This document shows positions 1 through 19,891 of a stretch of DNA of 20,184 bases, in pieces. Numbering within the stretch: position 1 is the stretch's first letter; every line of letters starts with the position of its first letter. Below the pieces are notes generated by a model. That model saw only the letters and a list, made by a program, of their open reading frames with translations, was not told where the DNA came from and did not search any database. Source of the DNA: a virus. The DNA lies in IMG/VR virus record IMGVR_UViG_3300046703_000046, positions 1-20,184 of that record. One strand, given 5' to 3'. The position numbers and the translations under genes were made by a program.

Positions 1-3000
1 GCTTATCGTTTCCCAATCTGGAAATGCTATGTGCTCTTCTAACAGCAATTCATCGCTTGAGAATGTAACTTCGCAGGTGTCCTCCCCCCCTACAACGCGG
101 TGCTCTTTGAACCCAGAGATAACACCACTAAACGCGGGTGTCTCGTCTGCGTTTCTCCAGATAACAAGGCCTGTCCCTTTAAGGAAACGTCGCGCTGGGT
201 ATAGGAAGGGGGCTATATCTGTTGACCTCGCAATACGATTTTGAATCCAGGTCCCCTCGGTTTGAGGTGTATAAACGGAATCGAACCATCCAGCAAGAAA
301 ATCAGCCGTGTTCATCGTCATAACAACGGTTGATACATCACAGTATTTTAGCTGGACATCCATAGTTAGCCAAGTCGTAACCGGATTGCGGAGGGTATAA
401 TCATAATTGCGAGCCCATACGCGATATACGGGGGGTGCTATTTCGACGTATTCATCGGTCTTTGTAATGGTGGAGCGCCATTTTTCAGAGAGGTAACTTT
501 TTGCTGCTTCTGCTGCCGAAAGGACTATATCATAAAGCCTAGCGAGGTATATCCCACCTAGCCAGTTTCCACCACTTATGGAATATCTACCGATTTGCAG
601 CGCACTTGCATCAGTAGGTATTGCTAAAGCACCTACAGTGGCCTGCTTATCGAGCACCCCGTCAATATACCACTTGATGTTATTAGCCCCGCCGTTTTTG
701 TCATACGTAAGAACGAAATGATACACTTGACCGGACACAAAATCGGTTTTCGTTGTGGTGAGAGTGAGGACTCCCACCCCCGCGTTATACACAGTGAAAT
801 AATAATAGAGGATTGTAGGGTGTCTAACGATTGTCCACCCGTTAGCACTTGGGGAGGTTCCATAGTCACCTATAGGCCCTCTCCAGCCTGCGTCTATCGT
901 GCAGGAAACTTGGAATTCGATCGAGAAAGCATCCGGTAAAACAGCGGGTGATGCAGCTGCGAGGTAGTCCGCACCGTCAAAATTGTAATAATACGAATTA
1001 ACACCTGGAGTCGATACAGCACCCGTGTTTGTGAGGCCAGCATAACGCCAGCTTTCCGCTACGTAATTTTGTTTGACGTCGTCTAACGATAAAATGGCAT
1101 TCTTGTATATTCTCGCTAGGTAAACATTAAATGCGGAGGGGGTTACGTCGTTACCAAACCTTAGAGGTAAAGGTGGGAATGGGTAGATGGCTATAGATGC
1201 ATGGACCTGTGTATTTAGGGCGCCGTTTATATATAACTTAAGGTTGTTTGTATCTGTCGAGTAGGGGTCATAAGTGACAACCACATGATACACGCGACCA
1301 AACGCGACCACACTACTTGAGATCTCGTAATTGGTAGCCCACCCTACACCAAAAGAGGTGAATCTCAAAGTGGAAGCGGCGAAATCCCAGTATAAAAGCC
1401 ATCCCGTCCCACCAGGGATGACAGTCCCAGCAAGGTATTGGTTTCCACCCGTGTCCGCCGTGACTTTTCCAACCCATTCAACAGAGAATGGTTCGAGGCC
1501 GTTCATTCCACCAATACGGGACATGCCAGCATTCGACGCTGCGAAATTCGTGGATGTAAACCTGTAGTAATAAGAGTCTATATCGGCAGTTGCTACGCCG
1601 CCGCTGTTCGCTAGTCCGCATATACGCCAGTTTTCTGCAATGAAGTTCGTATAAGCCCTATCAGCAGAAAGGACAGAACTATAAATGCGGCACGAAAGCA
1701 TCGCCTGATCCGTGGCAACGTGGGCACCTCCACCAATGGAAAAGATGTAAGGGGAGCTGGTGTTAGCGTCCCAATGCGAACCACCAGTCGCAGCTAGGGT
1801 AACTGTTTGGGATTCGCCATTGACATAAATGATTGGTGCGTGTGCTGCATCTGCACGCCGCATATCCCACGCTACTACGATATGGTATTCACTGCCAACA
1901 GCAGACGGCGATACGATCGTTCCTGCGGGTGTCACGTAGCTCCAGTAACCGCTGCCACCCCCCGCGGCCATCCGCTTAACCCTGATTGAGCCGGTGGGCT
2001 CTACGCATATATAATCGCTACCTTTAGCATACAAGTAAACACGTGCAGCCGCGACGTCTCCGCTGTAATAAAAGAATTCGTATGTCTTTTTTGAATTTCT
2101 GTTAAACGCGCCGTCAGTGGTAGCATGCCACGTGCTGTCCGTTGCATCTAACAGCGCAAACGCCCCACTGTTTAACGTGGTATAGGTGCCTGTAGGGACT
2201 GAGAGGTCATACGTGCCTGGGTGGACCGCATTGACAACCGTTGTGCCGCTACTTTGATTGAAGTCCCATTTAATAATACAGTCATCTTCATACGGCTGCG
2301 GTCGTATCGTGCTTTGGATAATCCCACTAACGGGACGATTAAAGTCCCACTTAGATACACACTGTTTCTCTTGTGGGTCTGCCGTGATTCTTGAGGTGTT
2401 ACGAACGTTTAAGCTTCCTGATTGATTGAAGTCATAGCTGTGTGTTGGTTGAACGGCGGGTTTTTGAACTGGTCTGGGCGCTCCCATTCGCCATTCATCA
2501 GCCCGATAATTTTGTGTGAGGTGGGCTCTACTAAGGACTAAACTATGCTGACGAAAGAGGATCAATGCGCCTTTGAGCACCAAGTCATTGGTAACGCGGT
2601 TTGCGATATACAGGGGGTAAGACGAATCATCAATCCACGCAGTAATAGCCGTCCCCGTATTCGTCATAGTGACTGCTACATTATTGACGTAGCAAAGTGG
2701 GGCGGCCGTGAACGGAGTCGTAGAGTCCCACGTTATCTGGATCGTATAACGCTTACCGGCGGCAATCGTTCCGGCAGGGGCCATCCAATAAACAAAATTG
2801 ACCCCCGCAGTATCCCTCCTTGTTAGAAGGATGCCCCCACCTGCGTAAATATACACTGAAAAAGCGGAGCTGCCATTTTTAGACCAGAGAGTTTGGGCAG
2901 TCGCAGTGGAATCTATTTGCACGATCCACTCAAAGGTCATGCCGGTCAGATTATTGTTGGGTGCCCCTGCAACTACTGCTAGGCGATCATCAGCAACTTC

Positions 3001-3162
3001 GAAACCAAAGGACGTAGCCCCCGTTTCCAACTTCCAGTATTGGTTGTGTGTAGCCGTCGCGTTATAGGTTGCTCCAGCGGTGCCCTTGTTGACCACCGTT
3101 GTTAGGTGTGGGGGCCATGTGCTATACTTGAGAGTGCAGTATGTCTCGAAAGCGTCAACCAT
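1..3162 (-). CDS. LamG-repeat tail/baseplate protein, partial (C-terminus beyond window)
   Basis: The minus-strand frame from ATG at 3162 stays open to base 1 (1054 codons, no stop), so the gene is cut by the window edge. It starts 5 nt after the distal tail gene, whose last codons (AAGGGGGTC) supply the ribosome binding site. About four LamG/concanavalin A-like units follow each other (roughly residues 1-225, 310-515, 525-705, 720-890). Each ends in a similar helix: NYRADEWR, NFIAENWR, NYVAESWR, SYLSEKWR. Residues about 895-1054 differ and contain VVMTMNTADFLAGWF, GTGLVIWRNADETPAFSGVI and a following DELLLEEHIAFPDWE stretch. These recall siphovirus ReqiPepy6 Gp37-like / baseplate hub proteins. 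By position (after TMP and Dit) this is a tail-tip protein. I infer that the LamG units bind host surface glycans. The LamG fold is well supported; the hub assignment is tentative. Confidence 0.8.
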   Translation of the reverse strand, partial: MVDAFETYCTLKYSTWPPHLTTVVNKGTAGATYNATATHNQYWKLETGATSFGFEVADDRLAVVAGAPNNNLTGMTFEWIVQIDSTATAQTLWSKNGSSAFSVYIYAGGGILLTRRDTAGVNFVYWMAPAGTIAAGKRYTIQITWDSTTPFTAAPLCYVNNVAVTMTNTGTAITAWIDDSSYPLYIANRVTNDLVLKGALILFRQHSLVLSRAHLTQNYRADEWRMGAPRPVQKPAVQPTHSYDFNQSGSLNVRNTSRITADPQEKQCVSKWDFNRPVSGIIQSTIRPQPYEDDCIIKWDFNQSSGTTVVNAVHPGTYDLSVPTGTYTTLNSGAFALLDATDSTWHATTDGAFNRNSKKTYEFFYYSGDVAAARVYLYAKGSDYICVEPTGSIRVKRMAAGGGSGYWSYVTPAGTIVSPSAVGSEYHIVVAWDMRRADAAHAPIIYVNGESQTVTLAATGGSHWDANTSSPYIFSIGGGAHVATDQAMLSCRIYSSVLSADRAYTNFIAENWRICGLANSGGVATADIDSYYYRFTSTNFAASNAGMSRIGGMNGLEPFSVEWVGKVTADTGGNQYLAGTVIPGGTGWLLYWDFAASTLRFTSFGVGWATNYEISSSVVAFGRVYHVVVTYDPYSTDTNNLKLYINGALNTQVHASIAIYPFPPLPLRFGNDVTPSAFNVYLARIYKNAILSLDDVKQNYVAESWRYAGLTNTGAVSTPGVNSYYYNFDGADYLAAASPAVLPDAFSIEFQVSCTIDAGWRGPIGDYGTSPSANGWTIVRHPTILYYYFTVYNAGVGVLTLTTTKTDFVSGQVYHFVLTYDKNGGANNIKWYIDGVLDKQATVGALAIPTDASALQIGRYSISGGNWLGGIYLARLYDIVLSAAEAAKSYLSEKWRSTITKTDEYVEIAPPVYRVWARNYDYTLRNPVTTWLTMDVQLKYCDVSTVVMTMNTADFLAGWFDSVYTPQTEGTWIQNRIARSTDIAPFLYPARRFLKGTGLVIWRNADETPAFSGVISGFKEHRVVGGEDTCEVTFSSDELLLEEHIAFPDWETIS
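2235..2445 (-). repeat. Three short WDFN-type protein repeats between LamG domains
   Basis: Between the first and second LamG units the protein reads SYDFNQSG, then KWDFNRPVSG, then KWDFNQSSG, at about 30-35 residue spacing. In LamG-type phage proteins such W/Y-D-F-N stretches usually mark the first strand of a jelly roll. The first two may be remnants of lost or compressed LamG units, or a linker. Confidence 0.5.
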
Positions 3163-3167
3163 CTAGC

Positions 3168-3995
3168 TTAGACCCCCTTATAGAACGAATACCAGTTAGC
3201 GGCCACGTTTGACGGAGCGGTCCCTGTGTAAGAGATCGTAATATTATTGACCCCCGCAACTAACGGGAAAAAATCGAGGGTGTTGACTGCGTCTATGTAA
3301 CCTGCCCAGTTAGTCGAGGGGGCCTTTACGACTGATTCCGACCCCTTTTGCGTTGTTATCTGGAAAACGCCTAGACCACAGGGGACTGCCGTGGTCCCAA
3401 GGACTATTTTGTAGCCAGTCGTGTTATTTGTTATCGTTACTACATACGGGTCCGCAGCGGCGACTATAGTCCAAACCGGATAAGAGGGCACATCGCCAGC
3501 GTTGTCTATGTCCTGGGTCCATCCGGCAGCGGTGCTGAATATCTGCGAGTTTACGGTGCTGTCATACCAGAATGGATACGGGGCGTGCAAGGAGACCGCA
3601 AAGAGAAAAAATTTACATCCGAACGTGTCTGTTGACTCCGCGGAGTCCCATTCATAACAATAGCAATCTAAGTTCCTTTCTTGAGAATCAACGGTATTTA
3701 ATTTGAGCCGCCCTATGCCACGCACCGGATCGAAGGCGTGTTCAAGCAGCCGCCGGTTTGCTTCGAGGTTAGAGGCAGTAGTCCCGAAACAAGATAGTGC
3801 GAGGGTCATCTCACGCGCTTTAACTTTAATTAATTTGATCTTATCCCCTGCTTGTAGATATCGCTCTTCTGTTACGAGCTCATAGTCTGGCCATGTCCTT
3901 CCCTGGATAGGGTAGCGCACGCGATAGATCGTGCCGTCGCTTAAGACAAAAGCTGTATCATCGGCATCATACCAGGTCCATATTTCATCTACCAT
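3168..3995 (-). CDS. Distal tail protein (Dit-like, phage tail family)
   Basis: The product is 275 aa, at the usual Dit position directly after the tape measure gene (gap 16 nt) and before the tail-tip protein. A GAGGTAGAG ribosome binding site precedes the ATG. The N-terminal half has the look of the Dit/phage tail family: a start rich in strands, then ANRRLLEHAFDP followed by GIGRLKL, and then CKFFLFAVSLHAPYPFWYD. That pattern (a helix with 'R..L...FDP..G.G.L', later 'L.AP.PFW.D') is typical of siphovirus tail proteins that form the hexameric hub at the end of the tail tube. The C-terminal half (about 150-275) is rich in strands and probably a galectin-like or carbohydrate-binding-type domain, as in long Dit proteins. 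Assignment rests on position plus sequence pattern. Confidence 0.75.
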   Translation of the reverse strand: MVDEIWTWYDADDTAFVLSDGTIYRVRYPIQGRTWPDYELVTEERYLQAGDKIKLIKVKAREMTLALSCFGTTASNLEANRRLLEHAFDPVRGIGRLKLNTVDSQERNLDCYCYEWDSAESTDTFGCKFFLFAVSLHAPYPFWYDSTVNSQIFSTAAGWTQDIDNAGDVPSYPVWTIVAAADPYVVTITNNTTGYKIVLGTTAVPCGLGVFQITTQKGSESVVKAPSTNWAGYIDAVNTLDFFPLVAGVNNITISYTGTAPSNVAANWYSFYKGV

Positions 3996-13036: not shown

Positions 13037-13588
13037 TCAAGGGAGGTAGACGATATACGGTCGTAGTTTCTTTTCAGTCATTGGTGGGATCGTGCCCATC
13101 GACGCTGGTTCGCTAAACCAATACGCAGCAAGTTCTATGATCGCTCGTTTAATCGGTAGAGGCACCGCGGAAGCGGCCCCGTAACCGGCCGTGTATTCGA
13201 TCAGCATGCCGTTAAGTTCTCTAATATAGCCCCAGGTGTAACCCGTTAAGAGTTCTACCCACCCTGGCTCTGAGAAGGTGTCCATCGTGTAGGACGCCGC
13301 GTCCTGGACCGTAGCGGCTCCTATGTCATTATAAGTAGTGATCGAAACGATGCTTCGAAGGGGGGGCCTCGGCAGCCATATTGCGTCCTTGACGTCTTTA
13401 TAATCAAGTGCTTTCTGCCAGGTCTGCGTGATAAAGGCGCGTCTCGTAAAGTCCTCGGCATATTGACGCGCTGCTTGTGCGAGCTCTAGCAGAGTTGCGT
13501 CCGCTGCAGATGATGACATGCGTAAGAAGGTCCGCACGTCTAACGCGACGGCGACGTCCGTTGCTGGGGCTGTCTTTAGTTTTATCAT
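13037..13588 (-). CDS. Head-tail connector protein (gp6-like / phiE125 gp8 family)
   Basis: The product is 183 aa and its ATG overlaps the previous stop (ATGA at 13588-13585). Its landmarks are ARQYAEDFTRRAFITQTWQ, IWLPRPPLRSIVSITTYND, PGWVELLTGYTWG, LIEYTAGYG, and PLPIKRAIIELAAYWF. These 'A+.Y.E..T.RA..TQTW', 'LPR.PL.S+.SI.Y' and 'YTAGYG...PL.I+.AI..L..YW' stretches are diagnostic of the gp6-like/phiE125 gp8 connector family. The protein forms the ring under the portal. Length is normal for the family. Confidence 0.9.
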   Translation of the reverse strand: MIKLKTAPATDVAVALDVRTFLRMSSSAADATLLELAQAARQYAEDFTRRAFITQTWQKALDYKDVKDAIWLPRPPLRSIVSITTYNDIGAATVQDAASYTMDTFSEPGWVELLTGYTWGYIRELNGMLIEYTAGYGAASAVPLPIKRAIIELAAYWFSEPASMGTIPPMTEKKLRPYIVYLP

Positions 13589-14079
13589 CCCTTCACTACT
13601 TCCGGCACTATTTTGTTGATTTCTATAGGCATGGGTCTAGCGTCAAACGCGGCCGTTGTTACCGTCGATAACGCAACTTCTTTCGTCACCTTATCCACAA
13701 AGATAGTTTCGGGTTCCGGCGCTATTGGCAGCTCTATTGAGCCATCGTCTGCGTTTATGCTGACTAACGTTTGTTTGAGTTCTAGGAAGTTTGTTAAAGT
13801 GTGATACCATAGAAGTGTAGGTTCATCAAAGTCAGCCTCGAGCGAGAGTCCTATTCCGAAATATGCGTCAAAATTGTTCGTTACAAGGGGAAGTTCAATA
13901 GTAGGAATCTGTAACATGGTTTCGTCATATTCGAAACCCGTCACCACTTCGCCTTCTCCGTCTAAATCCGATTGCATTTCAGTTTCGGTTATATTTTGAG
14001 CAAGTCGGATAAGGACCGTGTCATCAATCTCAGCCTGAACTGTTATAGGGTCCGGTTGTGTCATGCTTTGCGATTTCAT
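13585..14079 (-). CDS. Unknown acidic structural-region protein after the DGR reverse transcriptase
   Basis: I choose ATG at 14079 (164 aa) because AGGAGAAT lies 10 nt before it, within the last codons of the RT gene. The longer start at 14145 would overlap the RT by 61 nt and adds a basic stretch unlike the rest. The protein is acidic and rich in strands, with ETEMQSDLDGEGEVVTGFEYDE near the N-terminus and PEPETIFVDKV and PMPIEINKIVPEVV near the end. I recognise no family. It is not Avd, which is a small basic helical protein. Its stop overlaps the connector start (ATGA). Being between DGR and connector, it could be an accessory neck protein or a partner of the DGR target; this is a guess. 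Confidence 0.7.
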   Translation of the reverse strand: MKSQSMTQPDPITVQAEIDDTVLIRLAQNITETEMQSDLDGEGEVVTGFEYDETMLQIPTIELPLVTNNFDAYFGIGLSLEADFDEPTLLWYHTLTNFLELKQTLVSINADDGSIELPIAPEPETIFVDKVTKEVALSTVTTAAFDARPMPIEINKIVPEVVKG

Positions 14080-14084
14080 GTTTT

Positions 14085-15083
14085 TTATTCTCCTACCGTA
14101 AGCGGCGCAACGTAACGCTGTTCGAGGTTGAAGGCGTCGCACCATTTCATCCAGCCGTGATAACTCGCAACTGAAGATAATTCACCAGCAGTCAGTGGCA
14201 ACGAAAGGTTTGTCATCTTCCTTTTGGCCCTAGTCGCGATTGATTTCCTTAATAATGTATAATCGCCAAAGCTGCGGTAGCCGAGAAAATCGACGCCTCT
14301 TGTCGTCGTTGGGAATATCTGATAGTTAGATTTTAAGGTGAGTTGCAGCTGCGTGGCGAGATATTCTTCGATGCGCTCAAGGATTGTATGAAGCACGTCT
14401 GGATCCTGGTGAAGGATTACACAGTCATCGCAATAGCGGAAGTAGTAGTGCATTCTCAGATCTTCTTTGACCCAGTGATCAAAATACGTCAGATAAAGGT
14501 TGCTGAGATACTGGCTCAGATAATTGCCGATTGGAGCACCATGACCCCCGCCTACACTTTCAACGATCCCGTCAAGGAGCCATAACACGTCATTATCCTT
14601 GATCTTCTTACGAATGATCTGTTTTAGAATCGCATGATTAATCGATGGGTAGAACTTCTTAACGTCGAACTTCAGACAGTAAGTTGTATTTTCTTTATCC
14701 CGTAGCGCCTGGTGTATCCTTTTCAGTCCGAAATGGATTCCTCGTCCGTGAATTGAAGAATACGTGTCATAAATAAACGTCCGATCCCATATCGGACCAA
14801 GGACCTGCATGATTGCCCAATGGATGATGCGGTCAGGATAATAGGGAAGCCGGTAAATCTCACGTTCCTTCTTCCCATCAAACCTCATGAAGATGTCATA
14901 AGGTGATGTTTCATAGGTCTTGTTTTCCAGCATATCGCAGATTTGCGAGAGATACAATTCTGGATTCTTGTTAACCATCTTTACTTCAGAATAGAATGCT
15001 TTTCCTCTGCGAGCGTTGACGTGCGCTCGAGTAAGGTTGTCCATTGTATAGATTTGAGGGTAAAGATGATCGTAGCGTTTCAT
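14085..15083 (-). CDS. DGR-type reverse transcriptase
   Basis: The product is 332 aa with ribosome binding site AGGA 6 nt before ATG. It copies the template RNA into cDNA with errors at adenines. RT motifs in order: REIYRLPYYPDRIIHWAI (74-91), DTYSSIHGRGIHFGLKRI (106-123), motif A YCLKFDVKKFYPSI with catalytic D140, motif B GAPIGNYLSQ (182-191; the IGxxxSQ box typical of DGR RTs), motif C YCDD with D219-D220, then LQLTLKSN and RGVDFLGYR. The tail YHGWMKWCDAFNL also matches DGR RTs. It lacks the maturase and endonuclease domains of group II introns. All catalytic residues are present, so it looks functional. It begins within the ATGA overlap with the TR-containing ORF and is part of the late-gene series. 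Confidence 0.95.
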   Translation of the reverse strand: MKRYDHLYPQIYTMDNLTRAHVNARRGKAFYSEVKMVNKNPELYLSQICDMLENKTYETSPYDIFMRFDGKKEREIYRLPYYPDRIIHWAIMQVLGPIWDRTFIYDTYSSIHGRGIHFGLKRIHQALRDKENTTYCLKFDVKKFYPSINHAILKQIIRKKIKDNDVLWLLDGIVESVGGGHGAPIGNYLSQYLSNLYLTYFDHWVKEDLRMHYYFRYCDDCVILHQDPDVLHTILERIEEYLATQLQLTLKSNYQIFPTTTRGVDFLGYRSFGDYTLLRKSIATRAKRKMTNLSLPLTAGELSSVASYHGWMKWCDAFNLEQRYVAPLTVGE

Positions 15084-15364
15084 GATGTCCTAGTCAGTTT
15101 GTGAAGTAACTGCCGAGCATTCCATTCTTTTTTTGAGAATCTACTAACACGGCATTGTTCGTTGTTGTGTGTTTTACCCAGAGGTAGGGCACGCATCTTA
15201 TCGAAATGAGTTTTAAATTCCGATCTAGAGAATACTCCACAAAGTAAGTGAGTGCTGATATTCCGATTAGAATTCGATGAGGCATTATTCAGATTCCAAT
15301 TGAAAGTGCCTGCATTAGCCTCATTATTCCAATTGCTGCTGGATATCGCACAGATGCATGCCAT
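15080..15364 (-). CDS. 94-codon ORF that contains the DGR template repeat
   Basis: ATG at 15364 is preceded by GAAAAGGAAAG, an acceptable ribosome binding site, and the stop overlaps the RT start (ATGA). Residues about 6-41 are the TR read in the same frame as the target protein (SSNWNNEANAGTFNWNLNN). The remaining 53 residues, CGVFSRSEFKTHFDKMRALP onward, have ordinary protein composition and no family I know. TRs are normally treated as non-coding, so this may be only an open frame that results from TR's coding origin plus a leader for RT. The start, ribosome binding site and coupling make translation plausible. Confidence 0.4.
   Translation of the reverse strand: MACICAISSSNWNNEANAGTFNWNLNNASSNSNRNISTHLLCGVFSRSEFKTHFDKMRALPLGKTHNNEQCRVSRFSKKEWNARQLLHKLTRTS
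15241..15350 (-). repeat. DGR template repeat (TR)
   Basis: This 110-nt sequence aligns without gaps to the VR at 15436-15545. It carries eleven AAT codons in the target frame, each giving NNT after A mutagenesis, so stop codons cannot arise at these sites. Of 35 adenines in TR, 25 differ in VR; only one non-A position differs (T to G near the 5' end). Direction TR then RT is normal for a DGR. Confidence 0.97.
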
Positions 15365-15424
15365 TTATTCTTTCCTTTTCTCTTGTTAATTTTAGCCTTT
15401 GCTTATTTTTTAGCCGAATGTCGT

Positions 15425-16561
15425 CTATCCCACATAAAGCAAGCGAGCGCCGATACTCCGACTAGAATTCGACGAGGCACTAGCCAGAGCCCAACTGAAA
15501 GCGCCCGCACCAGCCCCAGTATTCCAAAAGCCGCCGGCCACCGCAATCTTGTTTCCTGTTAAGCGGTAGTAGTAGTCGCACAGTTTCGTAGTTGCGCTGC
15601 CGCCTACCGCAGACGGTAGAAATCCGAAGTCGTGTCCGGCACCTATAGCGATGTCCGTCGCGTAGCCGTCTGTGTTGCAGAGTGTTAGTCCGGTGTCTGC
15701 GTATGGGTGTGCAAATGTATCTGATGCAAAGTCATGATCCGCTATCCAGGGCATATAATCGGCCTTGATGTTGATCCCATCAACGAACTTGAAAAGGTTG
15801 CCGTAGAAATTCTCCACCCATCTATACGCCATCGCCTTCGTCGTCTGACCTGTTTGGTAGTGAATTACAGATACTTCTCCGCTGCCGTTCCCGCTAAGCA
15901 CCGCGGTATATCCGGTATCGATCGCCATATTAGTAGTAGCGTCATCAGTGATGTTCGTCACTCCGGCGCTCAGCAACGCTTGCGAGTTATAACCGCCATA
16001 TTCAACAAAATACAGTCCTTGCAAGTGCGCAGTAGTAAGGTAGTCCTGGATCTCCCACTTGTTCGCTACGCCGCCGGCGCGTAGTCTCGCAGCAGTCCTG
16101 AACTGTGCTATCGTCTTTAATGCTGTTGGTTTCTTGTTAGGCAGCGATTCCAACATTGAAGTAGTAGCATTGAAGTATCCCTCATATCTTCCAATGTAAA
16201 TATACTCCCGCACGGCACTGTCTCTACTAAATAGAGGACATAACTTCACGGCGTTTCCATCGACAGTATCAGCGGGGTTGTCAGAGAAGTATAACGAGTA
16301 GGTGGTGGATGGTGCGTCATACTTTTCGTAGTAATAACACTTAGGAATCTGAACCATCTCTTGGTGCGGTTCCGCGATAGGATGATTATAACACGGGGTG
16401 CCGCCGTAAGCGGTAACGTTTCCTAGATTGTTGAGGTTCACTAGTCGCAACATCCAGGGCGCGCACCAATTGAAGTCAAGCCCTGCAGTCTTCCCGACCG
16501 CCCCTTCTAATCGCGTGTAAACGTCCGTTGTTTTATTCCACGCTAAACCCCACAAGGTCAT
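15425..16561 (-). CDS. DGR target protein, C-type lectin-like
   Basis: The product is 378 aa with ribosome binding site GGTGAGGT before ATG. Its C-terminal part has the landmarks of the C-type-lectin-like (FGE-sulfatase-type) fold used by DGR targets: YIYIGRYEGYF (120-130), KKPTALKTIAQFRTAARLR (143-161), LQGLYFVEYGGYNSQALLSAG (180-200), YRWVENFYGNLFKFVDGINI (246-265), then GGFWNTGAGAGAFSWALAS (343-361) within the VR. The invariant core of the VR (W346, F355, W357, R368, L374-L375) would hold the fold, while residues from AAT codons form the ligand-binding face. Expected role is a displayed receptor-binding or attachment protein. It sits between capsid-associated genes and neck genes, so its place on the particle is uncertain. 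No signal peptide or membrane segment is seen. Confidence 0.92.
   Translation of the reverse strand: MTLWGLAWNKTTDVYTRLEGAVGKTAGLDFNWCAPWMLRLVNLNNLGNVTAYGGTPCYNHPIAEPHQEMVQIPKCYYYEKYDAPSTTYSLYFSDNPADTVDGNAVKLCPLFSRDSAVREYIYIGRYEGYFNATTSMLESLPNKKPTALKTIAQFRTAARLRAGGVANKWEIQDYLTTAHLQGLYFVEYGGYNSQALLSAGVTNITDDATTNMAIDTGYTAVLSGNGSGEVSVIHYQTGQTTKAMAYRWVENFYGNLFKFVDGINIKADYMPWIADHDFASDTFAHPYADTGLTLCNTDGYATDIAIGAGHDFGFLPSAVGGSATTKLCDYYYRLTGNKIAVAGGFWNTGAGAGAFSWALASASSNSSRSIGARLLYVG
15436..15545 (-). repeat. DGR variable repeat (VR)
   Basis: The VR encodes residues 340-375 of the target protein, at its C-terminus. Changes relative to TR are 20 A to G, 3 A to C, 2 A to T and 1 T to G. The stop codon follows three codons later. 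After the aligned block, VR continues CTTTATGTGG and TR CTTTGTGG, so similarity fades with a 2-nt offset. Confidence 0.97.
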
Positions 16562-16582
16562 ATTTTTACCTCACCGATGCTT

Positions 16583-16942
16583 TCATACCGACGGTTTCAT
16601 GACGATGGTTATCACTCTGGAGCTGCTCTGCGTGACAGGCGTTGCTGACGTGCCGGAACGCAACTTCAAAAACCGCCAAGGCGCAAGACTCCACATTGCC
16701 ACGTTGAGGGTGCGGTTGACGCTAACGGAAACGGCCATAGAAACCTCACCGGAAGCATCGTAGACATTCTGATATGTTCCGGCAAGCGTGTCACAGCTTT
16801 GAAACGTAAGGACGGCGGCAGTCCATGCGGCGGGCATGATCATTCCCAGATACTTCGCCGCCCCAATATCTATTGCATTGCTTAGTCCTGTTTCATCGCC
16901 AGCCGCTATTGTCGCAGTGACCGGACTCGGATAGGATCTCAT
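16583..16942 (-). CDS. Small head-region structural protein (119 aa)
   Basis: The product is 119 aa with ribosome binding site CAGGGGG before ATG. It contains MPAAWTAAVLTFQSCDTLAGTY, then WSLAPWRFLKLRSGTSATPV and SSSRVITIVM. The pattern 'AWTAA.LTFQ.......Y....D..G', 'P.R.LKLRSGT...PV.Q...R.I.++.+' occurs in many small phage proteins of unknown function encoded in head or tail-fibre regions. It is mostly strands, like a decoration or fibre-base domain. It lies directly upstream of the DGR target (21 nt), so a structural link with the variable lectin is possible. Confidence 0.7.
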   Translation of the reverse strand: MRSYPSPVTATIAAGDETGLSNAIDIGAAKYLGMIMPAAWTAAVLTFQSCDTLAGTYQNVYDASGEVSMAVSVSVNRTLNVAMWSLAPWRFLKLRSGTSATPVTQSSSRVITIVMKPSV

Positions 16943-17045
16943 TTTTCCCCCTGTCAGTTAAGACTCGGAAATGTAAAATGTTCTAAGAGAGGGCGGGGCG
17001 GGAATGAAGAAAAACCAACCCCGTATCCTCCTTAGATAACTGTTT
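16943..17045. other. 103-nt gap with an unused Shine-Dalgarno
   Basis: On the minus strand the gap begins with AAGGAGGAT (17024-17032), a near-perfect ribosome binding site, but no ATG or GTG follows at a useful distance. TTG at about 17015 would give only 11 codons. A G/C-rich purine run (plus 16986-17002) follows. No clear terminator hairpin is seen. Confidence 0.5.
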
Positions 17046-17495
17046 CTAGGCGTGTGCTGGTTCGTTTCTCAGATAGGTCTTGAGTAGGTAGCAACCCACT
17101 ATGGTTGATATTGTGCCCACCGATGACGTCAGCCGGATAAAGTCCATAGTTCCCTTATATTGGAAGAAATACGTGTGGGCTGTGTCCGCGCCTGCTGTAG
17201 CCGTTAGCAAAGAGCCAACGATTTTGGCTACGTCGCCATCGTCTCTTACTACCTTACAGTCAGCTGCTGCTACTGCGGTCCCCGCTCCTGCGGCTGTTGC
17301 AGATTCTTTCAGACCGATTACCAGGTCTGCGGTTGCTGCGGTTCCTAATACTAATACAAACGTGTTAGACTCCGCGTCCGTTGTGTCAATACATTGGTTG
17401 CCAAACGCCGTTTCAATCGCGGCAGTGTTTGCGCATACTAAGGGTGCGAAGATTGGGACCCAGTGGATCCTGTGGAATATTTCCTTATTCACCAT
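17046..17495 (-). CDS. Putative head accessory protein (149 aa)
   Basis: The product is 149 aa, starting 1 nt after the previous stop, with GAGGATAAC before the ATG. N-terminal MVNKEIFHRIHWVPIFAPLVCANTAAIETAF is followed by Ala/Thr-rich segments (ATADLVIGLKESATAAGAGT, ADCKVVRDDGDVAKIVGSLL), HTYFFQYKGTMDFIRLT and a hydrophobic GTISTIVGCYLL. The composition (strands, Ala/Gly/Thr-rich) and the place two genes after the capsid gene suggest a capsid decoration or cement protein. I recognise no family with certainty. Confidence 0.7.
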   Translation of the reverse strand: MVNKEIFHRIHWVPIFAPLVCANTAAIETAFGNQCIDTTDAESNTFVLVLGTAATADLVIGLKESATAAGAGTAVAAADCKVVRDDGDVAKIVGSLLTATAGADTAHTYFFQYKGTMDFIRLTSSVGTISTIVGCYLLKTYLRNEPAHA

Positions 17496-17496
17496 A

Positions 17497-17682
17497 TTAG
17501 TTATCCTCTTGATTTTCTATTGCGATTTTCGTTTTTTCTTGTGATGCTATGAAAAAAAGGACTTGCCTGCGCTCTTCTAGGGCGCCGTCACAGGCGTGAA
17601 CGTTTGCTTGAAACTGGGCACGCGCTGCGACTAGCTCGTCTATTCGCTGTAAGCAATCCTGTTTTAAATATTCACTGTTCAT
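17497..17682 (-). CDS. Small helical protein (61 aa)
   Basis: The product is 61 aa with ribosome binding site TTAGGTGAT 4 nt before ATG. The sequence predicts one or two helices (YLKQDCLQRIDELVAARAQF and ALEERRQVLFFIASQEKTK), likely a short coiled coil. Short coiled-coil proteins of this kind are common in phage head regions, but no function is known to me. It is not a convincing Avd: too short, and without the basic four-helix length. Confidence 0.65.
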   Translation of the reverse strand: MNSEYLKQDCLQRIDELVAARAQFQANVHACDGALEERRQVLFFIASQEKTKIAIENQEDN

Positions 17683-17715
17683 AAATCACCTAATTTCTAA
17701 GGTTCTAAGATTCGA

Positions 17716-17874
17716 TCAGGCCCACGATCCCGTAAAGGTAAACACTTGACCTGCGGCATTTTTCAGCTTTACGTCTGTGCCGTCGAAATACACAATGACG
17801 CCACTAGCGGGGGCAGCAGGCGCTGTCGTGGTTTTGACCCGCATCGCGCTGGCTTTAATTGCTTTTGCTGGCAT
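17716..17874 (-). CDS. Small protein after the major capsid gene (52 aa)
   Basis: A 52-codon ORF with a strong ribosome binding site (TAAGGAGTG, 7 nt before ATG at 17874) lies in the gap between the capsid gene and the 61-aa gene. The translation is MPAKAIKASAMRVKTTTAPA followed by strands (SGVIVYFDGTDVKLKNAAG, then QVFTFTGSW). It resembles a short strand-rich fragment of a phage decoration or fibre protein ('YFDGTDVKLKNAAGQ'). Spacing (24 nt after the capsid stop) and ribosome binding site support real expression; function unknown. Confidence 0.72.
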   Translation of the reverse strand: MPAKAIKASAMRVKTTTAPAAPASGVIVYFDGTDVKLKNAAGQVFTFTGSWA

Positions 17875-17898
17875 GTCTCTTCACTCCTTACAACTGAA

Positions 17899-19134
17899 TC
17901 AGACTGAGCACTCTAAGGGCACGTATGCGGCTTCGTTAACTACCCCGCCGCCAACTCCGAGGCGTTCTGAAAAGAGACTGACTAAACCTTTGGTTGTTAT
18001 CTCATCCCTGATCGTGTAGATACCTGGATTATCGACTATAGTGTAGGCCTCTCTGAAATCGCCATACATAATAGGCTTGACGTTCACTCCACCAACAGCC
18101 GCGCCAATGTTCTGCATTGCAGGGACATAGGTTATAGGGTGCCCAAAGAGCATGTCTCTTGAAATGGGCGTTGCGTTAACACCGTAACCCATCATGACAT
18201 TTTGCTCCAGGATGTAGCGCCCAAGGCCGTCTTGCATCATTCTAAGGGCTGCCTTCGTAGCACGATTCATGATCCATGTTGCGTTAGATTGATACTGCTC
18301 TGGCAGGTGCTCTTGGCAATCAATCAAGCAATCAAAGTCAGGGATCGTAGCAGCGGCGGCTGTGTGGACATGCACTACGTTGGTTGCTGCCTTGTTTGCA
18401 GCGGTTAGGACTCCCTGTGGTCTACCTGTGCCGCTTCCTGTGACAAAGGCGACGCCTTCAAGGAAACCGTAATATTCAGTAACTCTGCGAGTCATCCAGC
18501 TTTCGACATTGAACGCTGCGGTCCTTGCCATCTTCTGCGTCATAAGTGGCATGGCATACATCGGATGTGTTGGGATTTTGACTTCCGCAGTCGTCATGTT
18601 TGCAGTTGCGGGTCTTGCCCCTACTTCTGAGGTCCACCCACAAGGCATAGTGCCGACTTCCTGGACCATCGTTAACTCGTCACCATTTTGTAGCGTCTCG
18701 ACGCTGGCGATAGATCTGATTGGTGATGTGTTTACAATAACCTCGATGATACGGTTGCTCATCGTGGAGGGCATCCAATACCCGCCGGTTGTCAGATCGT
18801 TTGCAGCGATAGTCTTGATATAATCAGGCGTCTCGCGCTTTGAGTGCGTCGCTACGTATTCCTTGATCCAGGTGAGCTCATCGTAGCTGGACTTTGTGAA
18901 CAGATAGTGCTGATAGTCCTCCATCCACTTCTCTTCTATGTCGTCACCTTTTTCTTTGGCGACAAGTCCAGGGGGCATATTGCCCTTTGTTTCGAGAGTG
19001 TCCATCCTGTCTGTTAGTGATTCCTGTGCGAGCCCAAACTCATCAAGCTTTGAGCTCATCTTTGTATTGAGATCAGCCACTCCGATTGACATTTCCGAAA
19101 CGAGCTGCTCCATCGTTTTTGCTTCTACTGCCAT
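17899..19134 (-). CDS. HK97-fold major capsid protein
   Basis: The product is 411 aa, 10 nt after the protease gene, with GAGGATAAC before ATG. The first about 100 residues are charged and helical (MEQLVSEMSIGVADLNTKMS, ...DRMDTLETKG), like the delta domain that acts as a scaffold and is cut off by the protease. The capsid fold follows: AANDLTTGGYWMPSTMSNRII, NTSPIRSIASVETLQNGDEL, VKIPTHPMYAMPLMTQKMAR, ESWMTRRVTEYYGFLEGVAFVTGSG-TGRPQGVL, and a C-terminal GDFREAYTIVDNPGIYTIRDE. 'AFVTGSGTGRPQGVL' and 'GDF+.AY.I.D..GI...RDE' are diagnostic of the HK97 capsid family. Length is normal. Confidence 0.96.
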   Translation of the reverse strand: MAVEAKTMEQLVSEMSIGVADLNTKMSSKLDEFGLAQESLTDRMDTLETKGNMPPGLVAKEKGDDIEEKWMEDYQHYLFTKSSYDELTWIKEYVATHSKRETPDYIKTIAANDLTTGGYWMPSTMSNRIIEVIVNTSPIRSIASVETLQNGDELTMVQEVGTMPCGWTSEVGARPATANMTTAEVKIPTHPMYAMPLMTQKMARTAAFNVESWMTRRVTEYYGFLEGVAFVTGSGTGRPQGVLTAANKAATNVVHVHTAAAATIPDFDCLIDCQEHLPEQYQSNATWIMNRATKAALRMMQDGLGRYILEQNVMMGYGVNATPISRDMLFGHPITYVPAMQNIGAAVGGVNVKPIMYGDFREAYTIVDNPGIYTIRDEITTKGLVSLFSERLGVGGGVVNEAAYVPLECSV

Positions 19135-19144
19135 GTTATCCTCT

Positions 19145-19891
19145 TTAGTTTTCGATCTTTAGTGCTTCGATTAATTCCGTAAGTTTCAATTTCAACTGCT
19201 CATCCACTTTTACATCCAACTGTGCATCTTCTGCTTTGGCAGGGGGTGCCTTGGCTGGTGGTGCTGCTTGTGCGTCCGCTGGAGGTGCGGCTCTACCAAG
19301 AATAGCATCACAGTATTTTAGCGCCTGCGCGAGCGTGTCTCGTAATGCGGTAAAGTCATCTGAGTTAACAGTCGAGAGCACGCGCCCCGCTTTTTCCCCG
19401 TCTGGTGCCTCTGGTTTGTCACCTAGGCCCTTTACCGATGTGTTAACTGCCTCTGGGTTGCTAGGAAAAGTGACGTTGCTGATCTCCCAGAGGTCCACTA
19501 TCGAAAGGTGCTGGGTCCCGTCATCGTCTTTAAAGGCCTTACCAGCTTTTACGTTGTAACCTATCGAGTTACTATCAATGTCGCCATTGACGGCGGCTTC
19601 GTAAGCATCTTTACCCCAGCTCGTTTTGAGGTTGTATTTAGCACGATACTTTAAGCCGATTTCATCCTCCCAAAGTTTGAGGATCCGTCCTGTAGGTTTC
19701 TTAAAATCATGCTGCCATAGAAACTTGACCTTACTGGGATCACGTAAGACAGCATTAAAGGCCCCTATGTCTACAACGTCGTTTTGCGAGTCTACTACGC
19801 CATAGACACTTGCGTAGCCCTCGACAAACCCTTTCTCGTCTGGGACTTCTATAGGTGCTGAAATGTTTTTATAAGAAAGTTCTTGTGTCAT
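19145..19891 (-). CDS. HK97-type prohead protease, with scaffold-like tail
   Basis: The product is 248 aa with ribosome binding site AAAGGGGAT. It has GFVEGYASVYGVVDSQNDVV (21-40), FLWQHD with catalytic His61, SNSIGY with catalytic Ser109, and DLWEISNVTFPSNPEA (133-148), the signature of the Peptidase_S78/U35 prohead protease family that trims the capsid protein during maturation. After residue about 155 comes a disordered Ala/Pro-rich linker (APPADAQAAPPAKAPPAKAE) and a helical end (LDVKVDEQLKLKLTELIEAL), which may add scaffold function. It is directly upstream of the capsid gene, as in HK97. Confidence 0.93.
   Translation of the reverse strand: MTQELSYKNISAPIEVPDEKGFVEGYASVYGVVDSQNDVVDIGAFNAVLRDPSKVKFLWQHDFKKPTGRILKLWEDEIGLKYRAKYNLKTSWGKDAYEAAVNGDIDSNSIGYNVKAGKAFKDDDGTQHLSIVDLWEISNVTFPSNPEAVNTSVKGLGDKPEAPDGEKAGRVLSTVNSDDFTALRDTLAQALKYCDAILGRAAPPADAQAAPPAKAPPAKAEDAQLDVKVDEQLKLKLTELIEALKIEN

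Follow-up and report, generated by a model that had tools for sequence, protein, structure and literature searches.

The locus raised the question of whether a phage cassette with a target gene, a template repeat (TR) and a reverse transcriptase (RT) gene, but no avd gene, is a working diversity-generating retroelement (DGR) and, if so, how copying of its template would be primed. We know of no mechanism worked out for Avd-less DGRs. The cassette occupies positions 14085-16561 of IMGVR_UViG_3300046703_000046, a virus fragment of 20,184 bases. The whole of this stretch is called the window below, and related loci are designated by L numbers.

Components of the cassette

The following features, all on the minus strand, were distinguished:

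14085-15083, minus strand: DGR reverse transcriptase, 332 aa (PF00078, PHROG 1423, 8ub7, catalytic residues, RT tree)
15080-15364, minus strand: 94-aa open reading frame across the TR and the spacer, with its stop on the RT start codon; judged incidental
15088-15092, minus strand: probable RT ribosome-binding site TAGGA, directly 3' of J', assigned from its sequence
15091-15191, minus strand: match to the Rfam RT-17 RNA (RF03020), 32.1 bits, under the gathering score of 40.4
15098-15108, minus strand: helix J', 3' strand TACTTCACAAA; forms 11 bp with J, one of them G-U, closing the domain that contains H1 and H2
15111-15154, minus strand: hairpin H2; outer helix UGCCG-U-GU / GC-U-CGGCA, internal loop 5' AGUA / 3' GAA, inner hairpin
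15172-15189, minus strand: hairpin H1 (CCC-UACC-UCUG-GGUA-AAA), from the spacer alignment, covariation and the covariance model R1
15233-15243, minus strand: helix J, 5' strand TTTGTGGAGTA, at the 3' boundary of the TR; predicted template side of the priming duplex
15241-15350, minus strand: TR, with 35 A in 110 nt, from the repeat alignment
15425-16561, minus strand: gene of the target, a DGR variable protein of 378 aa with a C-type-lectin fold (PHROG 5302 'tail protein', 5vf4 profile, AlphaFold model)
15436-15545, minus strand: variable repeat (VR), target codons 339-376, from the repeat alignment

The target with its VR, the TR and the RT thus follow one another on one strand in the predicted order. 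The TR and VR aligned without gaps over 110 nt and, in agreement with the original prediction, 25 of the 26 mismatches fell on adenines of the TR (20 A>G, 3 A>C and 2 A>T, plus one T>G), a concentration with a hypergeometric p of about 1e-15. The two sequences part sharply beyond 15241 and 15436. No third copy was found in the window, where the next best site differed at no fewer than 40 of 75 non-A positions. In a check for IMH/IMH* and a 3' stem-loop, the inverted repeats seen downstream of the VR were just 6 nt long, with no clear stem-loop and nothing above chance; in BPP-1 there is no strict requirement for such a stem-loop (PMC12875486). We also noticed that A>G accounts for 80% of the template-A changes in the window (20/25) and for 49% over the VRs of 79 relatives; in the closest relatives, L002-L004, the share is 68-70%. 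The variable positions of the window VR now code mostly for Gly, Ala and Ser.

The RT matched PF00078 (E 1.9e-17) and PHROG 1423 (E 5e-119), and its nearest solved structure was the BPP-1 DGR RT (8ub7, E 8e-41 across residues 2-320). The catalytic residues D140, D219 and D220 and the IGNYLSQ box (residue 185) were found where they had been claimed to be, and the protein therefore has the catalytic Asp and the [I/V/L]GxxxSQ box of a DGR-type RT. In a tree of 65 RTs, in which many deep forks were weakly supported and long branches were flagged, the window RT grouped with the RTs that bear the RNA element described below, including that of crAssphage LMMB, and apart from BPP-1.

The target matched PHROG 5302 ('tail protein', E 1.5e-66) and, by profile, 5vf4 (E 3e-9), and the VR covers residues 339-376 of its 378, that is, the C-terminus, as had been proposed. 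An AlphaFold model built from a 17-sequence alignment had a mean pLDDT of 83.6 and a pTM of 0.88, with pLDDT below 50 in part of the variable loop. TaqVP, a DGR variable protein, was the top match of the model, with a Foldseek E of 3e-11 and a VIA Z of 25.7 across 268 residues, and further matches, among formylglycine-generating-enzyme folds, were TvpA (Z 13.4) and Mtd (Z 11.5). These structural matches support the predicted C-type-lectin fold, which the target would share with TaqVP (5vf4), TvpA (2y3c) and Mtd (1yu0-1yu4) at sequence identities of 18%, 14% and about 17%, respectively; Mtd aligns through its C-terminal half only (chain residues 165-377). Target homologues of 42-43% identity with VR-like C-termini were also seen in L082 (5001-6176), L084 (945-2174) and L085, and no RT, TR or RNA element was present in the DNA examined around them.

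Absence of Avd

No match to bAvd (PF22296) was obtained among the window proteins tested. Similarly, a six-frame search that found the BPP-1 control detected no Avd, whether in the window or among the 29 related records covered, several of which are fragments. The lineage-3 DGR of crAssphage LMMB has the target-TR-RT order without avd (PMC7290462), and the window shows the same lineage-3 features, so that the lack of Avd is normal for this class. The original prediction had listed all parts of a DGR except Avd; every part that it named was confirmed, but the lack of Avd is no defect, and the structured RNA in the TR-RT spacer had been overlooked. The window holds a complete Avd-less DGR, an unremarkable representative of a known class.

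The LMMB cassette resembles that of the window in its gene order, the lack of avd, a C-type-lectin target, a homologous RT (44%) and the same RNA element (R1, E 6e-13), whereas the phage backbone is another one and the LMMB target differs in position (tail-collar fibre). With the BPP-1 DGR (brt, avd, mtd, TR, VR1) the window shares the A-specific transfer from TR to VR, a homologous RT (8ub7), a C-type-lectin target with a C-terminal VR, a structured TR-RT spacer and a TR 3' end that pairs with the spacer beside a priming A, which in the window is a predicted one. The two differ in that BPP-1 needs Avd and in the kind of spacer: that of BPP-1 is the Phage_DGR RNA (RF03022), that of the window is RT-17-like.

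Variable repeat turnover in relatives

For signs of activity we compared relatives whose RT genes are at least 95% identical, over about 2.1 kb (2,100 nt) for each pair. L008 and L009 differed at 22 positions, 21 of which were VR positions with a template A; the corresponding numbers were 16 of 17 for L008/L011, all 17 for L009/L011, all 9 for L017/L018 and 14 of 16 for L043/L044. The TRs were identical within all of these pairs. This is the A-position diversity with an invariant TR that had been suggested as a check, here observed in the cassettes of relatives, and it indicates that related cassettes are active in nature. In addition, most of 80 relatives have an A-biased TR/VR pair next to the RT. 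A pattern search of the IMG/VR records searched gave no near-copies of the VR or TR of the window's phage; judged from its relatives, the window's own copy would be active as well.

It could be argued that the A-biased mismatches are a relic and that an inactive cassette is passively carried. The data for the window come from a single contig, and both the predominance of Gly, Ala and Ser at the variable positions and the high share of A>G would fit such a relic. On the other hand, a single non-A mismatch was found in 110 nt, the catalytic residues of the RT, the frame of the target and the RNA domain are all intact, the relatives are active, and the nearest of them are A>G-rich as well. We therefore regard an inactive DGR as improbable.

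A structured RNA in the spacer

An alignment of the region between TR and RT revealed a motif present in nearly all of the relatives examined. Its reading frame varies among them and contains stop codons, and the motif is therefore no conserved peptide. In the relatives, H1 is preceded by CC and followed by AAA, and changes in its stem compensate each other (TGCC/GGCA, TACC/GGTA, CGCC/GGCG, TGGC/GCCA and CACC/GGTG). H2 lies at a distance of 23-30 nt as a rule; its outer helix usually contains a U-U or G-A mismatch and its inner stem is variable. The internal loop of H2 has the form [G/A]GUA over GAA (GGUA in 53 and AGUA in 16 of 69 cases), and the AGUA/GAA of the window corresponds to the sequence consensus of a sarcin-ricin/loop E module. 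Double-sided changes of base pairs were counted in 54 cells among 17 aligned relatives, compared with 15.3 after shuffling, and the covariation score of 0.696 fell to 0.19 or less when the partners were slid by one base.

We built a covariance model of the spacer RNA, R1, from which the window was left out. It matched the window at 15100-15189 on the minus strand (E 2.6e-5), and this was its sole match in the 20 kb; in the 410 kb of window and related loci there were 43 matches. Among RT relatives in prokaryote genomes, 32 of 37 were detected with E of at most 0.001, and a further viral set yielded 29 of 50. crAssphages LMMB and cr6_1 were matched too. There was no match in the methanogen virus L184 or in the BPP-1 spacer, and the element was absent from the loci of the most distant RTs. 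L184 carries an element-positive label in the RT tree, which leaves the reading unaltered.

The same element is described in Rfam as RT-17 (RF03020), by a model that does not include helix J/J' and fails to find several members recovered by R1. At the TR-RT spacer, 9 of 16 sampled sources reached the gathering score of RF03020. Although the window does not, we call its element RT-17-like because position and structure are the same and related loci pass. RF03022 had no match in the window, while BPP-1 itself was matched. None of the openly accessible papers searched describes a role of RT-17 as a DGR RNA.

Two further observations concern other Rfam families. In L124, which is among the most distant RTs, an RT-3 RNA (3824-3971) lies in the TR-RT spacer of a DGR with A-biased TR and VR, and in L151 a divergent R1-positive locus (2923-2998) corresponds to RT-18 in the same place. 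These orphan RT-n families look like DGR RNAs as well.

Pairing of the spacer with the TR end

When we searched for pairing between spacer and TR, the 3' boundary of the TR was found to pair with the segment directly 3' of H2, forming helix J/J'. In 50 nonredundant loci, J and J' of the same locus paired far better than permuted partners (z 9.5, 0/5,000), and controls with the TR body, the linker and H1 gave z near 0. The median start position of J is about -1 relative to the TR end, which is the expected start of copying. In 15 nonredundant prokaryote-genome loci alone the effect was not significant (z -0.5 and 0.8); the permutation test is powerless where J is invariant. Using the same J and tail windows, 14 new viral loci gave z 5.8 (0/20,000), their helices reaching 9-11 bp; for all 29 loci taken together z was 5.6. 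Additionally, free folding of the window spacer produced J/J', H1 and H2 together unaided, and the fold was more stable than 200 of 200 shuffles (z -2.95).

As a positive control, the same stem finder was applied to BPP-1, where it paired ATCACCT of the TR end with AGGTGGT at spacer positions 48-54, followed by C55 and A56, the latter being the BPP-1 primer. The spacer of BPP-1 reportedly folds, recruits bRT-Avd and uses an adenine within it for priming (PMC12875486). In the 14 new viral loci the sequence after J' is mostly A or CA; in the window the sequence is CUGA, and the A is thus not immediately beside J', unlike in most relatives. J' abuts the RT ribosome-binding site, which reads TAGGA in the window and ACAAAGGAG in several relatives, so the fold may also restrain RT translation.

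Template RNA, leader or gene

A structured element in front of a gene could be a leader of the RT mRNA that controls translation and forms no part of the template RNA. In nearly all loci the element does directly precede the RT, and J' not only adjoins the ribosome-binding site but in some relatives overlaps an AAAGGAG-like sequence. However, in L034 and L063 it has stayed with the TR, some 700-800 nt away from the RT and separated from it by other sequence, and in L040 a second copy is found 3' of a second TR, downstream of the RT. J, moreover, is situated at the TR 3' end. Because the element tracks the TR in these loci, it is part of the template RNA and not an RT leader alone; we give the pure leader little credence, although a leader role and a template role could coexist. 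That it is a gene is less credible still. The 94-aa frame is open in the window, L083, L086 and L004, in L004 it is fused in frame to the RT, and in PHROG 1423 TR-like sequence precedes the RT on the N-terminal side, which together might suggest a TR peptide coupled or fused to the RT and conserved at the protein level. Against this, the motif occurs in differing frames with interrupting stops, a frame open in the TR extends to the RT in only 12 of 53 loci, and the base pairs covary. The exact coincidence of its end with the RT start is explained by the ATGA start of the RT, which stops any open frame of that phase. On the evidence of reading frame and covariation we rejected the frame as a gene, which we consider highly improbable. 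The structured TR-RT spacer RNA has the look of an essential part of the DGR.

Some of these loci are of interest in themselves. L063 (4092-5001) and L034 represent a natural separation of the template RNA from the RT. On the 3' side of the RT, L040 (1723-1905, the second TR having its own RNA element), L045 (6409-6472) and L026 (6318-6380) have second TR/VR pairs or VRs. The fusion of the TR-spacer frame to the RT in L004 illustrates the likely source of misannotated long RTs such as those of PHROG 1423 with TR-like sequence.

Position of the cassette

The minus strand of the window has a siphovirus-like gene order. It begins with a prohead protease, the capsid protein, two small genes, the target, the TR and the RT, continues after the RT with a gene of no assigned function, a head-tail adaptor, head closure, neck, tail terminator and major tail protein, and ends with a chaperone, the tape measure, Dit and a 1,054-aa frame that leaves the left contig end. 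This last frame (1-3162) had no PHROG match. No relatives were found by the search with the 119-aa gene between capsid and target, and a promoter and terminator scan gave nothing exceeding chance. Outside the cassette, the window has almost no synteny in common with its relatives. On a 72-kb viral contig with the same DGR type, L016, a Pistol ribozyme (RF02679, 65 bits) was seen upstream at 673-743.

The cassette lies within the head module (13037-19891), flanked by the genes for the capsid and the head-tail adaptor. L083 and L086, both close relatives, likewise have it amid head, packaging or neck genes, at other points: between a weakly capsid-like gene and neck and major tail genes in one case, and between terminase and head-morphogenesis genes in the other. 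From this position it is possible that the variable protein is displayed on the head, and not at the tail tip, so that the DGR would diversify a lectin of the capsid surface. Gene position is weak evidence, however; PHROG 5302 is named 'tail protein', and the cassette comes after tail or baseplate genes in L009, where baseplate genes precede it, and in crAssphage LMMB. We consider head display rather unlikely, though more plausible than the alternatives dealt with above.

Discussion

Taken as a whole, the data are very probably best explained by a working-looking Avd-less (lineage 3) DGR with a folded template RNA and priming at J'. Computed in this analysis were the A-specific mismatches of TR and VR, the identity of RT and target, the lack of Avd, the covarying RNA that travels with the TR, the J/J' complementarity and the A-specific VR turnover of relatives. 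In the mechanism that we propose, the TR-spacer RNA would be transcribed upstream of, and together with, the RT. The spacer would fold into H1 and H2, the latter with its loop-E-like internal loop, in a domain closed by J/J', and this helix would link the TR 3' end to the segment right before the RT start and present a spacer adenosine. The RT would presumably bind the TR-spacer RNA without Avd, and an adenosine next to J' would prime cDNA synthesis back into the TR. Copying of the TR would be error-prone at A, and the cDNA would replace the terminal VR of the target gene, so that up to about 20 residues of the C-type-lectin binding face may change. The target would probably serve in receptor binding.

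Because the element tracks the TR even far from the RT, and because J/J' resembles the BPP-1 pairing by A56, RT-17 is most likely the scaffold and primer of the template RNA in Avd-less DGRs. We also find it likely, with somewhat less confidence than we place in the overall explanation of the cassette, that the wider reading holds in all its parts: RT-17 would be the 3' template-RNA scaffold of these DGRs, with covarying hairpins, one of them loop-E-like, closed by a J/J' helix that determines the priming adenosine and, by abutting the RT ribosome-binding site, may let the transcript alternate between serving as template and as messenger, and RT-3 (L124) and RT-18 (L151) would be its counterparts in other DGR lineages.

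As a DGR, the locus is a further phage cassette in an already large class. Its value is at the level of the family, since it would give a function to the orphan RNA family RT-17 and provides a concrete primer-template model for Avd-less DGRs, in which the covarying RNA positions are open to compensatory mutation. For targeted protein diversification, a compact cassette of target, TR, RNA and RT without Avd would also offer a simpler tool.
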